Source: Sediminispirochaeta bajacaliforniensis DSM 16054
GTDB lineage: Bacteria; Spirochaetota; Spirochaetia; DSM-16054; Sediminispirochaetaceae
Assembly: GCF_000378205.1 (NCBI RefSeq)
Contig: NZ_KB899406.1
Coordinates: 62,001 to 126,000 of the forward strand
Direction: 5' to 3'
Length of the DNA stretch: 64,000 bases
Below the pieces are notes generated by a model. The model was not told the DNA's origin. It was given only the letters and a program-made list of their open reading frames with translations, and made no database searches. The stretch's first letter is position 1. The number at the start of each line of letters is the position of its first letter. Below, piece after piece: positions 8,088 through 12,922 of this stretch. The position numbers were made by a program, and so were the translations under genes.

Positions 8088-8927
8088 TTAAAAGGGGTAC
8101 CAGAACATGGTCCCGAGGTTGCGTTTCATCCAGACGGCGAAGATGAGGAAAAGCGCCATGGCGGTAAAGACTATGGCGTCCCCTTTTGCGAGGGGGCGGG
8201 CGTTGTACCATGTCCGCTTTTTTTCCGTGCCGAAGCCCCGCAGACTCATGGCGTTGCTGATCACCTCGGCCTTGTCCAGGCTGGAGAGGAGGAGGGGAAT
8301 CAGCACCCGGGTAACGTTGGTGATCCGCTGCTTTAGCGGGACATTTTTCGAGATATCCACGCCCCTGGCCTGCTGGCTTTGCATGATGTTGACAAAGTCC
8401 TTGGTGATCTCCGGCAGATAGCGGAGGGTGAGGCTTACCGAATAGGCGACCTTGTAGGGGACACCGATCCTGTTCAGGCTCGAAGCAAATTCCGTGGGAT
8501 GGGTGGTAAAGACAAAGAGCAGGGCCATGGGAAAGATCGAAAAGTGTTTGACGGCGATCACCAGAAGGTAAAAGAGGGTTTCCCGCGTCACGGTGTAACG
8601 CTCGGTGATGACGAACAATACGGTTTTCGATCCCATGTACTCGACGCCCTGCATGGGGGCGAAGAGAAACATAAAGAGGCTGTTCATGATGAGGATATAG
8701 ATCATGAATAAAAGGAAGGGGCGGTAGATGCGAAAGGGCACCCGTGAGAGCACTATGAGAAGGAGGCCGAAGAAGAGCATTCCTGCAAGGATCCTTAGAT
8801 CGAAGGTGGTGAGCACCACGGTGATCCAGTAGATGAACAGGGCGAATTTCGTCACGCCCGAAAGCCTGTGGAGGGGGGAGGCCGTATCTATGTAGTTGAG
8901 GCCGAAGCGGATTTTTGACTGGTCCAT
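8088..8927 (-). CDS. ecfT: ECF transporter transmembrane component (EcfT)
   Basis: Integral membrane scaffold of an energy-coupling-factor vitamin-type importer, 279 residues. It has N-terminal hydrophobic helices and the two cytoplasmic coupling motifs typical of EcfT: QQARGV near residue 180 and SLRGFG near residue 230. These dock onto the ATPases. The start overlaps the end of the ATPase gene by 40 bp; no better start is seen. It is the last gene of an operon encoding SAM hydroxide adenosyltransferase-like proteins, an S component and a fused ATPase. A short palindrome (CCCTTTTAAAAGGG) spans its stop codon, followed by the hairpin block. Confidence 0.9.
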   Translation of the reverse strand: MDQSKIRFGLNYIDTASPLHRLSGVTKFALFIYWITVVLTTFDLRILAGMLFFGLLLIVLSRVPFRIYRPFLLFMIYILIMNSLFMFLFAPMQGVEYMGSKTVLFVITERYTVTRETLFYLLVIAVKHFSIFPMALLFVFTTHPTEFASSLNRIGVPYKVAYSVSLTLRYLPEITKDFVNIMQSQQARGVDISKNVPLKQRITNVTRVLIPLLLSSLDKAEVISNAMSLRGFGTEKKRTWYNARPLAKGDAIVFTAMALFLIFAVWMKRNLGTMFWYPF

Positions 8928-10630
8928 GTGCGTTGCCTTTGCTCCTCTTCAATGAAACGGTCGATGAACCGGTCGACTTCTCCGATTCCCAGCTTGTTGG
9001 CCAGCTCGTAGAGACTGGTCGGCTTCAGGTTGGCCGTTTCGATGATCCCGGGGTTACTGAAAATCCTGGACATGGAATCGTCTCCGATCATCTTGCCGTC
9101 GGTCAGCACGATCGATCTGGCGGTGTATTCCAGGGCCAGATGCATGTCGTGGGTGATGAATACAATCGTCAGGCCCGTTTCATCGTTGAGCCTGCGGAGA
9201 AATTCCATGATATCGGTGTAGTGACGGTAATCCTGACCCGCCGTGGGCTCGTCCAGGATCAGGAGCTTGGGCTCCATTACCAAGATCGAGGCGATGGTTA
9301 CCCGTTTTTTCTGGCCGTAGCTGAGGGAGCCGATGGGCCAGTTCCTGAAGCGGTAGAGGCCGCAGAGTTTCAGTGCCTCGTCGATTCGCCGTTCGATCTC
9401 ATCTTCCGGCATCTGCCGCAGCTTCGGGCCGAAACCGACCTCTTCCCGGATCATGTGGTGGCTGATCATGTGGTTGGGGTTTTGCATCACAAAGCCGATC
9501 TCGCGGCTTCTGTCGGCAATCGTCGTCTTGGAGATTTCTTCGTCGCGAAAAAAGAGCTTTCCGGAATCCTGTTTGATAAGCCCGGTAATGATGGCGGCCA
9601 GGGTCGATTTTCCGGCTCCGTTTTTTCCGAGGATGGAAACCATCTCTCCCTCTCTGATATCGAAGCTGATCTCCTCCAGCGCCTTTCGCTCACCCGTGTA
9701 GGAGTAGCTTACCGATTCGAGGCGAAGCAGCGAGGGGCCCTTTGCCTCCGGCCGGGGGAGCTGTCGCTCCCTGAACCACTTCAGGATCTTCTCACGGTGC
9801 TTCTCCAGGCGGATGGTATCGATGGATGCGGCCCTGTCCTCTTCGGAAAGTGTGCAGCCTGCGAATTTCATGGCCGCGATATAAAGGGGCTCCCTGATTC
9901 CTTTTTCAGCGAGAAGGGAGCCTGCAAGCAGCTTGTCGGGCTTCTCGTCGGCGATGATTCGTCCCTGCTCCATGAGCAGAATCCGGTCGACCGGCCGGTG
10001 GAGGACATCTTCGAGACGATGCTCGATGATGATGACGGTTTTCCCTGTTTTTCGGTGGATCTCATCGATGAGTTCGATGGCGACCTTTCCCGTCTTCGGA
10101 TCGAGGTTCGCCAGAGGCTCGTCGAAAAGGAGAAGGTCCACGTCGTCCACCAGAATCCCAGCCAGGGAGACCCGCTGTTTTTGTCCTCCGGACAGCTCAA
10201 AGGGTGAGCGTGCGAGGAATTCCTCCATCCCCACCATGGCCGAGGCCTTCTTCACCTGGTCGATCATTTCCGGTCGGCCTACCGCCGCGTTTTCCAGGAC
10301 AAAGGCAATGTCCTCGGCCACCGAAAGGCCGACGAACTGGCTGTCGGTGTCCTGCAGCACCGTTCCCACCAGCTCGCCCCGTTCATGGAGATCGGCGTCT
10401 TTACTCTCCTTACCTTCGAGCCTGAAGCTTCCGCTTATCGACCCCTCGAAAGAGAAGGGGATCAGCCCGTTGATGCATGAGCCGAGGGTCGTTTTCCCGC
10501 TTCCCGAGGGGCCGACAATGAGTATCTTTTCTCCGGCTTCCACCCTGAGGGATATCTCCTTCAGGGTGGGGGCCTTCTGGCTTTTATACCGAAAGGAGAA
10601 CGTTTCGAAGGAAAGGAGCGCCTGGCTCAT
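8888..10630 (-). CDS. ECF transporter ATPase, two fused nucleotide-binding domains
   Basis: A 580-residue fusion of the two EcfA-type ATPases that energise ECF importers. Domain 1 (about 1-240) has [19 protein letters not shown] and [12 protein letters not shown]; domain 2 (about 300-540) has [19 protein letters not shown] and [12 protein letters not shown]. Both signature and Walker motifs look intact, although the second signature is LSYGQ rather than LSGGQ. The start overlaps the S-component stop by 4 bp (ATGA). A fused EcfA is a known variant; it fixes a 1:1 pairing of the two domains, as in dedicated group I systems. Confidence 0.93.
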
Positions 10631-11181
10631 TCTTCCTCGGAAAGCTCGCTGCCCTGTCGGTTCCGCTTTGCAATCAGGGCCATGATGATCGATCCGATGA
10701 TTGCAATGATGACCGTGTTGGTGCTGGCGATGATCAGCTGCTGGGCGATAACCTTGCTGGCGGGTTCGGCGTAGAGGACATAATCGAGAAAGGCCGAAAT
10801 GCTGTAGCCTACGAAGTTGCCGATAAAGGCCAGGATAATGAAGATGATGATCTCTTTGGCTGCGAATATTCCTTCATCCACCTTGTCCTTTGTGATGATG
10901 GGAAAGAGACCGATGACGATTCCGACGATACCGGAACCGAGGACCCAGGTCATCCAGACGCCCCAGCCGGCGAAAAGATCGGTGATCCAGTGGCCGAGAA
11001 ACCCGACGAGGAATCCGACCACAGGTCCGTAGAGGGCGGCAAAGATCGCCAGGATTGCCATGGCCGGTTTCAGGGTGGTCTCTGCAAAGATCGGAATACC
11101 GAAGATCGGCAGGCCCCCGATTCCATAGAGGGCGGCGCCGATGGCAATAATAACCACCGTTTTGGGAGAGAGCTTTTTCAT
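10627..11181 (-). CDS. ECF transporter substrate-specific (S) component, UPF0397-like
   Basis: A 184-residue membrane protein with about five hydrophobic segments. The opening ([20 protein letters not shown]), then [20 protein letters not shown] and [20 protein letters not shown], resembles the UPF0397 family of ECF S components. The ATG at 11181 was chosen because AAAAGGAG lies about 8 nt upstream; the longer frame would overlap the preceding gene. The ligand of this family is not firmly established. Its position directly after two SAM hydroxide adenosyltransferase genes suggests a nucleoside, methionine-related or other SAM-derived ligand, but this is inference from context only. Confidence 0.8.
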
Positions 11182-11198
11182 AGACGCAACTCCTTTTA

Positions 11199-12044
11199 TT
11201 ATGCGATCTCGAACCGGATTTTCCACTCCGGTCCGGATTGGATGCCATGCTTTTCGGCGAAACTTCCCTGATTGGTGGAGAGGGAGACAAAGAGGAGCTC
11301 GTTATTGTAGATAAGATCCTCTCCTTGCTCTGCTGCCGAGAAAAAGTCGAGGTAGGGCAGGGTTTCCTGGAAGAGCGTTTCGCCGCTTCGGGTAATGGTG
11401 ACAAGGGCCTTGCACCCGGAGCTAAAACCTGCCGAGTCGAAGAGCTTTTTGGGAATGTTCGTCCAGACATTTCCGTAACGGATATCAAGGATCTCGATCA
11501 TGCCGGTAAGCGACCCCCTTTCCGTTTCGGGTTCCAAAAGGGGGAGGGTAACGATGCTCTTCGGATCGAGTCCTGGCCCGACTTCGTTAAAGGTGATGGT
11601 TCCCGAAGCAAGACGTGCACCGGTATAGCCGTAGACATCCCTGCCGTGGAATGTGTGGCTCTCTCCGCTTCCCGGGGCCCTGTTTGTTCTCTCGTCTATC
11701 TCCCGCAAAGCGTTAAGCCCCACATGCTTTGCAATATGGGTAAGGCTTCCGTTGTCCGGGGTGACGATATAGTGATCCTGTGAGGTTTTCGCAACCACCG
11801 ATCTTCTGCTCGAGCCGACTCCTGGATCAACCACCGAGACGGCCACCGTCTCCTTCGGCCACCAGGGTAGGGCCTGCATGAGGCGATAACTGGCCTCCCA
11901 GATATTGAACTGGGGGATGTAGTGGGTAATCTCATGGATTTTGAGGCCCTGATCGACCCCAAGGGCCACCCCGTACATCTCCGCCACCGTTCCTTCGAGT
12001 CTGCCGAAATCGGTTTGAAAAAGCAGTAGTTTATGTCGATCCAT
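11199..12044 (-). CDS. SAM hydroxide adenosyltransferase family protein (DUF62), copy 1
   Basis: Member of the fluorinase/chlorinase/SAM hydroxide adenosyltransferase family, which splits S-adenosylmethionine with water to adenosine and methionine, or with halide in specialised members. The family triad is visible: Asp73 in VDPGVG, Arg80/Arg81 just after it, and His133 in FHGRD. The N-terminus (LLFQTDFG) and [10 protein letters not shown] are also conserved. At 281 residues it has normal length. It is followed 17 bp later by the ECF S component and preceded 29 bp upstream by a paralogue, so hydrolase and transporter are probably one operon. Halide specificity is not suggested by anything I can see. 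Confidence 0.88.
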
Positions 12045-12073
12045 AGCTTACCTCTTGTATTATTATTTTTGCG

Positions 12074-12922
12074 TTAATCACCCTTGGACAGACGGACCAC
12101 CCAGCCCCGCCCTGACTCGATGTTGTGGGCCCTGGAGAAGTTTCCCTGATTCACGGCAATACCCACGTTCAGCAGTGAATTGATGTAGACCAGCGACTGG
12201 CCGATTGCCGCGTCGCTGAAGGATTTTCCGAAGATAAGCCGGTTCCCGTATACGGTGTTGCCGTATTTGCTTATCTCCACCAGTACCGTATGGCCGTATT
12301 CGACTCCGAGCTCTTCGAACATGGTCCGGGGAACATTGGTCCAGAGGCTTCCGTAACGGGCGTCGAGAATATCGATGCTTGCGGTAATAATCCCATCTCG
12401 TAATTCCGCAGGCTGATGAGCGATGGTGACAGGTTCCGGCGCAAGCTCAGGTCCAATCTGTTCAAAGGTGATCACTCCCGAGGCAAGTCTGGCCCCGGTA
12501 TAGGCGTAGATATCCCGGCCGTGAAAGGTGTAGCTCTTTTCGCTGCCGCCGAGGCGGTTGATGCTCTCTTCTATCTCGCGCATGGCGGTGATTCCGATGG
12601 ATTCGGATATATGCGTCAGGGTTCCGTTGTCGGGCGTAACGATGTAGTGGCCGCTTTGTGCCAGGGCCACCACGCTTTTCCTGCTGGTACCGACCCCGGG
12701 ATCGACTACCGACACAAAGACCGTTCCCGGCCGCCAATATTCGATGGTCTGAATCAGACGGTAACTGGCCTCCCAGATGTTGAACTGCGGAATCTCATGG
12801 GTAAGATCGTACAATTTTAGATTATCGCTAACCGCTTCCGCCACACCGTACATGGCGCTAACCGCACCGTCGATGGTTCCGAAGTCGCTTTGAAACACAA
12901 GGCTGCCGTTTGTCTTTCTCAT
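12074..12922 (-). CDS. SAM hydroxide adenosyltransferase family protein (DUF62), copy 2
   Basis: A 282-residue paralogue of the next gene, clearly related along its whole length and differing mainly in surface positions. The triad is present as Asp74 (VDPGVG), Arg81 and His134 (FHGRD). It is the first gene of the ECF operon. There is no Shine-Dalgarno; instead TTGCAA-N17-TATCAT ends 6 nt before the ATG, predicting a leaderless transcript. The family crystallises as trimers, so two paralogues could form mixed trimers or use different substrates; this is inference. Confidence 0.88.
   Translation of the reverse strand: MRKTNGSLVFQSDFGTIDGAVSAMYGVAEAVSDNLKLYDLTHEIPQFNIWEASYRLIQTIEYWRPGTVFVSVVDPGVGTSRKSVVALAQSGHYIVTPDNGTLTHISESIGITAMREIEESINRLGGSEKSYTFHGRDIYAYTGARLASGVITFEQIGPELAPEPVTIAHQPAELRDGIITASIDILDARYGSLWTNVPRTMFEELGVEYGHTVLVEISKYGNTVYGNRLIFGKSFSDAAIGQSLVYINSLLNVGIAVNQGNFSRAHNIESGRGWVVRLSKGD

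Follow-up and report, generated by a model that had tools for sequence, protein, structure and literature searches.

A conserved operon pairing two SAM hydroxide adenosyltransferases with an Mts-type ECF importer in Sediminispirochaeta bajacaliforniensis, and its possible role in S-adenosylmethionine salvage

This study concerns a five-gene set in the spirochaete Sediminispirochaeta bajacaliforniensis DSM 16054 that combines two S-adenosylmethionine (SAM) hydroxide adenosyltransferases (HATs) of the DUF62 family with an energy-coupling factor (ECF) importer. It lies in the window, the whole stretch of 64,000 nucleotides (nt) that was analysed (assembly GCF_000378205.1, contig NZ_KB899406.1, positions 62,001 to 126,000 of the forward strand). 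All five open reading frames (ORFs) are found on the minus strand, running from 12922 to 8088 in window numbering in the order HAT1-HAT2-S-EcfAA-EcfT. They are tightly packed, with 29 nt between HAT1 and HAT2, a 4-nt overlap between the stop of S and the start of EcfAA, and a 40-nt overlap between EcfAA and EcfT, a spacing that suggests a single transcript. The flanking genes, judged by eye, appear unrelated. Scans for promoters (6 found, 3.2 expected) and terminators (9 found, 5.9 expected) gave a weak signal.

HAT1 (12074..12922, 282 residues) and HAT2 (11199..12044, 281 residues) are 50% identical, and each matches SAM_HAT_N and SAM_HAT_C (PF01887 and PF20257) above the Pfam cut-offs. The Asp-Arg-His triad, comprising D74, R81 and H134 in HAT1 and their equivalents in HAT2, is invariant across 16 aligned relatives, and the two enzymes probably split SAM. 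The first-pass annotation, which had recognised two DUF62 paralogues with intact triads ahead of genes for an S component, a fused EcfA and an EcfT, is borne out. Elsewhere in the source genome (4.57 Mb in 75 contigs) PF01887 has no further match. Against the (R)-SAM hydrolase equivalogs NF058624 and NF053629, HAT2 scores 122 and 114 bits and HAT1 119 and 90 bits, below the cut-offs of 350 and 470; against the fluorinase model TIGR04507 the two reach 66 and 74 bits, below its cut-off of 400. A solved structure, PDB 7ccg chain A, is by sequence also a relative of the DUF62 and halogenase proteins, and the name of the entry, 'DNA-directed RNA polymerase subunit delta', looks wrong.

The program-made ORF list had called the S gene from a GTG at 11226, 45 nt too early relative to an ATG at 11181. 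Because an AGGAG motif on the minus strand, likely to be the ribosome-binding site, precedes this ATG (11194-11190; 11190..11194 in window order), and because the model NF010182 aligns from residue 16 of the longer call, the ATG at 11181 is most likely the true start. The S component so defined (10627..11181, 184 residues) matches PF07155 with 146.7 bits and NF010182 with 223 bits (cut-off 99). EcfAA (8888..10630, 580 residues; Pfam and NCBIfam) contains two ABC_tran stretches and a DUF3744 domain, and EcfT (8088..8927, 279 residues) matches CbiQ in Pfam, giving the S component, two EcfA domains and EcfT of an ECF importer. An AF2 model of the S component is confident (pLDDT, the predicted local distance difference test score, of 91.6). 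Its top 23 matches in the PDB are S components by title, three of them with E < 0.001; the title of 4huq_S, an ECF complex, says no more than 'a transporter'. A sequence search of the solved structures found no relative of the S component, only weak matches to other proteins.

The MtsA of the literature probably belongs to the same S family as the window protein. It is in print under the name 'Substrate-specific component MtsA of methionine-regulated ECF transporter' (PMC9423846), while a separate paper gives mtsABC as a target of MetJ in Vibrionales (PMC4239095). The available parts of these two papers name no ligand for MtsABC, in line with the first-pass annotation, which had left the ligand of this S family unnamed; that view needs amending, however, in that the family can now be linked to a predicted methionine-regulated transporter. 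The S-AA-T architecture of the window operon matches that of MtsABC. Methionine or SAM control is seen in some relatives of the operon, and none was recognised upstream of the operon itself.

The association of HAT and importer genes is conserved. A scan of named genomes gave at least 584 confirmed relatives, from which the best 80 loci were kept; since the set holds only these best matches, its proportions are not natural frequencies. In 38 of these 80 loci at least one of S, AA and T adjoins the HAT, and in 33 all three do so. The gap between HAT and ECF genes has a median of 28 nt and exceeds 200 nt in only one of the 38. Another 31 loci have a HAT with a signal-peptide-like N-terminus and no ECF gene nearby, 11 have neither feature, and none has both. 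The ECF-linked loci come from Bacillota, Actinomycetota, spirochaetes and Psittacicella, and chance neighbourhood is ruled out by the recurrence of the arrangement in many genera and across phyla.

A similar picture emerges within the class to which the source genome belongs. PF01887 was present in 38 of 148 genomes searched, the source genome included, and 40 regions were fetched around the matches in the other 37. Scored against the better of the two window queries, these HATs fall into a close grade (161-624 bits, 27 of the 38 genomes) and a distant, canonical grade (58-108 bits, 11 genomes). The genes for S-AA-T lie beside the HAT in 16 of the 27 close-grade genomes, and this ECF set was beside the canonical DUF62 gene in none of the 11. 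In seven of the 27 the HAT adjoins genes for an ATP-binding cassette (ABC) importer of the amino-acid type (SBP_bac_3, BPD_transp_1 and an ATPase), called by Pfam for three genes of locus L069 and for a single gene in both L058 and L082, and otherwise by eye, some being cut by contig ends. The remaining four have neither importer, two of them on contigs of less than 4 kb. The PF07155 proteins of the class also split, S clade A being linked to a HAT in 18 of the 29 regions inspected (19 if one operon seemingly broken across contigs is included) and S clade B in none of 11. Lack of a conserved association, which the first-pass annotation had named as a refutation when it proposed a co-occurrence check, was thus observed in neither sample. 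The DUF62 and Mts-type ECF families are themselves known; no description of a HAT with this ECF importer was found in the open-licence literature searched.

The twin HATs appear to represent an old pairing. In a tree of 168 of 173 hidden Markov model matches, from which those shorter than 230 residues had been dropped, the window HATs fall in a branch separate from the canonical HATs of the class. The 126 cytosolic HATs divide into HAT clade A (93 sequences, support 0.72) and HAT clade B (33 sequences, support 0.96). HAT1 was assigned to clade A through a near-identical counterpart, L056:7911-8759, and HAT2 to clade B through L056:8789-9634. Both clades are represented in 29 of 29 loci that carry two or more HATs, a set that includes some close relatives as well as L136 and L192, apparently one contig. 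Lone HATs are of clade A in 62 loci and of clade B in two, one of which (L175) is at a contig end.

Seven alignment columns distinguish the two clades, and two of these touch the substrate: Asp18 is replaced by Glu in 28 of 33 clade B proteins and Ser249 by Glu in 29 of 33, both replacements being found in HAT2 through its counterpart, whereas all 93 clade A proteins retain Asp and Ser at the amino-acid-binding positions. In the alignment Ser249 corresponds to Ser269 of the fluorinase and Asp187 to its Asp210; equal spacing from the ribose-binding Asp suggests that Asp18 corresponds to fluorinase Asp21. In the fluorinase, the amino group of methionine is held by Asp21 and Asp210 and its carboxyl group by Ser269 with Arg270 (PMC1282579), and published structures place the active site between protomers of the trimer (PMC12120602). 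Given Glu at the methionine-binding positions and a site between protomers, clade B appears either to have a recast amino-acid pocket or to contribute half of a mixed site. A mixed A/B trimer is possible, and the consistent pairing of A with B lends it some support.

The triad is widely kept outside the window also, Asp74 and Arg81 in all 157 of the clade A, clade B and signal-peptide-like HATs, and His134 in 83 of 93, 33 of 33 and 30 of 31 respectively, the remainder having Tyr or Phe. Eleven relatives show such a replacement, Tyr in L122, L128, L141, L145, L176, L177, L178 and L181 and Phe in L198, L199 and L200. In an alignment with the chlorinase SalL a Tyr stands at apparently the same place as the triad His, and the activity of the Tyr and Phe proteins may differ.

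HATs with signal-peptide-like N-termini form a single clade (31 of 31, support 0.96), sister to the 126 cytosolic HATs (0.87). The signal-peptide call was made with a hydrophobicity window rather than a trained predictor; the motif could not be placed in eight HATs, among them L165, which was counted as signal-peptide-like by eye. These proteins come mainly from Bacteroidota, Opitutae and Gammaproteobacteria, with one from a Treponema and one from a Bacillota metagenome-assembled genome (MAG). MtsA was not found in any of 15 tested genomes with such a HAT, two control genomes being positive. In a Bacteroidales MAG (L130:8935-13915), an ORF that by eye resembles the methionine synthase MetH follows a HAT of this type.

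Control elements were sought with Rfam in 34 of the 38 ECF-linked named loci and in 7 of the 11 loci with neither feature. A T-box lies directly upstream of HAT-S-AA-T in five of the 34 (L102, L104, L127, L128 and L173), a SAM riboswitch directly upstream of S-AA-T-HAT-HAT in two (L155 and L159), and a T-box directly upstream of the HAT in two of the seven, which are Bacilli with a lone HAT. Further T-boxes were found only in L155 and L159, ahead of genes resembling MetN and MetI. The specifier is AUG, for methionine, in nine of nine T-boxes (covariance-model alignment for six, sequence pattern for nine). The HAT and ECF genes of these relatives are thus wanted when methionine or SAM is short. 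In addition, a consensus scan found tandem sites resembling the MetJ MET box upstream of Vibrio-like mtsABC, clear in three of ten cases (0-1 of 200 shuffles), marginal in three (5-17 of 200) and absent in four.

Several neighbouring genes, each seen at one or a few loci, fit adenosine or methionine as the product. In L058 a PGM/PMM-family mutase and DeoD, a purine nucleoside phosphorylase scoring above its cut-off, lie downstream of HAT-HAT, and the mutase is likewise beside the HAT in L069. L155 has an adjoining ATPase that resembles MetN and carries a NIL domain (282 bits against a cut-off of 500), together with a permease resembling MetI (202 bits against 212), a pattern that by eye recurs in L152 and L159. 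Upstream in L072 are a protein of the Metalloenzyme superfamily that looks DeoB-like and two halves resembling a transketolase, both likenesses being judged by eye. In one spirochaete genome that has no HAT of this subfamily, the SAM synthetase gene metK (565 bits, cut-off 309) is 18 nt upstream of S-AA-T (L197:6362-8146).

Other neighbours were noted in passing. A Cache-PAS histidine kinase (L061:6187-8037, Pfam) adjoins a HAT of the A type, with similar ORFs by eye in L078, L086 and L090, all in one spirochaete group, and could possibly sense the same compound. Proteins with similar N-termini separate the HAT from the adjacent genes of the set in L108:8190-8987, L111:10035-11729 and L115:11216-12742; one matches GNAT and one GntR/UTRA in Pfam, and a ligand-sensing regulator is possible. 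In a Treponema MAG (L135:5451-8910) HAT-S-AA-T is preceded by an ATPase resembling RbsA and by two ORFs, of which one matches BPD_transp_2 in Pfam; these are possibly a nucleoside importer. Peptidases of the M20 family are found beside the HAT in unrelated genera (L109:9855-11153, L125:5374-6843 and L158:2933-4273 by Pfam, L074:8484-9956 by eye); if the substrate occurs as an amide or peptide, such an enzyme would perhaps free its amino acid.

We propose, with a probability of about one half, that MtsABC imports SAM or a close adenosyl-sulfonium compound, which the HATs split into methionine and adenosine, the reading that best fits the linkage, the control, the apparent location of the enzymes and the changes in the pocket. 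External SAM, or the related compound, would be bound by the S component and brought in by the EcfAA-EcfT module at the expense of ATP. Once it is in the cytosol, water would take the place of the thioether at C5' of the adenosyl group, a reaction catalysed by the HATs, which may form a mixed A/B trimer. The methionine released would serve protein and SAM synthesis, and the adenosine would enter purine salvage. Where Gram-negative relatives lack the importer, the exported HAT of the sister branch would carry out the same chemistry outside the inner membrane. The proposal supposes that exogenous SAM is the substrate and that the control found in relatives applies to the source genome too. An import of a SAM-related ligand followed by its breakdown had been suggested in the first-pass annotation; the conserved linkage, the methionine and SAM control, the salvage neighbours and the signal-peptide-like sister branch support that suggestion.

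More tentatively, the whole can be read as dedicated scavenging of exogenous SAM, with a SAM-importing ECF transporter, A and B hydrolases of which B has a recast pocket, and export of the hydrolase instead in Gram-negatives; this would supply both the role of much of DUF62 and the ligand of MtsA. Clade B might then be active solely within a mixed trimer, or its substrate might be an adenosyl-sulfonium that is decarboxylated or amidated.

A number of observations weigh against the import and splitting of SAM, the strongest being that importer and HAT each occur without the other. Ten of the 29 S clade A regions are in same-class genomes that have no full-length HAT of this kind. In the Aeromonas order, 29 of 247 genomes match MtsA, 28 of them strongly; the HAT adjoins S in four of the 28, and no HAT is present in 24. 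The S components of 10 of these 24 loci, Vibrio-like by inference, closely resemble the window protein by eye. Since MtsABC occurs in these genomes without a HAT, its ligand is apparently usable without one. Conversely, MtsA was not found in any of seven tested Bacilli with a lone cytosolic HAT, two of which have a methionine T-box before the HAT, so that the enzyme can evidently work without this importer; in the L096 genome MtsA is present elsewhere, away from the HAT. Nor is the control general: Rfam found no T-box or SAM riboswitch directly upstream in 27 of the 34 ECF-linked loci, and no match upstream of the window operon. The streptococcal MET box, sought by its consensus upstream of six streptococcal HATs, gave no clear site, five being negative and the sixth, in L157, marginal (10 of 500 shuffles reach its score). 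With Tyr or Phe for the triad His, hydrolysis is uncertain in 10 of the 93 clade A and one of the 31 exported HATs, and these His-replaced proteins are mostly ECF-linked single HATs. The placing of metK ahead of S-AA-T in L197 is a single case. Loss of MetK also failed as a general correlate, only some of the 34 MetK-less genomes carrying the system.

The separate occurrence of importer and enzyme keeps alive the main alternative, which we judge rather unlikely, in which MtsABC imports methionine or another methionine precursor and the HAT, co-regulated with it in methionine starvation, recycles internal (R,S)-SAM to methionine. It accords with Mts in many genomes without a HAT, with the lone HATs behind methionine T-boxes, and with the preference of the Salinispora enzyme StDUF62 for (R,S)-SAM (PMC12120602). 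However, that 2025 study doubts that hydrolysis of (R,S)-SAM is the physiological role of StDUF62, HATs with signal-peptide-like N-termini would not meet internal SAM, and a second importer type, the amino-acid-type ABC transporter, is also found beside these HATs.

Improbable, in our estimation, is that SAM is imported for use as SAM, with the HAT merely clearing a useless (R,S) epimer imported along with it. Mts without a HAT elsewhere and the placing of metK beside S-AA-T would suit such a scheme, as would three genomes that are 95-96% complete (G069, G132 and G272), in which neither a full-length nor an archaeal MetK is present, RsmH is retained and one A-type HAT adjoins S-AA-T. RsmH is SAM-dependent, and these three are candidate SAM auxotrophs; G272 has a weak 55-residue match to MetK. 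In the class as a whole MetK was unmatched in 34 of 394 genomes, many of them fragmentary, the handles of 14 being derived by elimination, and the source genome has MetK. Other MetK-less genomes (G014, G017 and G083) do not have the HAT-Mts system, so the auxotrophy is only suggestive, and this too counts against our proposal. Against import for use as SAM, moreover, the HAT of G272 (L178) has Tyr for the triad His, and the phosphorylase and mutase beside the HAT point to adenosine flux. What a methionine T-box senses is uncharged tRNA-Met, not SAM.

Slightly more doubtful still is that the substrate is another adenosyl compound, for example decarboxylated SAM, or SAM in amide or peptide form. 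The Glu that 29 of 33 clade B proteins have at the carboxyl-binding position of the fluorinase would accommodate it, as would the M20 peptidases beside some HATs (L109, L125 and L158); yet clade A, with its conserved Asp and Ser for binding the amino acid, is nearly always present, and the known control is by methionine or SAM.

A SAM-draining switch that acts on the cell's internal pool, offered as a second possibility in the first-pass annotation, is very unlikely and was rejected: the expected chemistry would indeed drain SAM if (S,S)-SAM were attacked, but the SAM (S-box) riboswitch ahead of two of the operons normally turns genes on at low SAM, the opposite sense, and the sister clade appears to be exported. 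Riboflavin, with the HATs adjoining by accident, was rejected as having almost no likelihood, since NF010182, which the S component matches well above the cut-off, is an ECF-type riboflavin transporter in name alone, set against the recurrent HAT linkage and the methionine and SAM control; Rfam found no flavin mononucleotide (FMN) riboswitch adjoining the HAT-ECF operon in 34 ECF-linked loci, those of the streptococcal L157 and L160 preceding separate genes that are RibU-like by eye.

The linkage joins two questions, the role of DUF62 and the ligand of MtsA, and both can be tested with one operon. If SAM is indeed imported and split, bacteria would own a dedicated route for its uptake and salvage, an enzyme family of doubted role would gain a purpose, and 'riboflavin' would be a misleading name for this S clade. 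An apparently exported HAT in Bacteroidota and other Gram-negatives would make extracellular SAM a nutrient worth competing for.

The operon can be compared with several known systems. It resembles MtsABC (PMC9423846, PMC4239095) in its S-AA-T architecture and in the methionine-type control of its relatives, and differs in having a HAT pair built in, which the printed account, so far as available, does not mention. With StDUF62 of Salinispora, an (R,S)-SAM hydrolase (PMC12120602), the window HATs share the family and the catalytic triad, and methionine and adenosine are the expected products; they differ in reaching only 90-122 bits where the equivalog models demand 350 and 470, in lying apart from the canonical branch and in forming an A+B pair. 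The fluorinase FlA and the chlorinase SalL are homologous over most of the length, with the 'WTN' motif and the equivalents of Asp210 and Ser269 in the C-terminal domain, whereas the window HATs keep the hydrolase triad that the halogenases, according to a review, do not have. The QrtT-QueK-QueL queuosine salvage system of C. difficile (PMC11477304) has another ligand, other enzymes and another S component, but follows the same logic: a riboswitch, an S component of the ECF type, and a hydrolase through which the useful portion of the nucleoside compound taken up is released.

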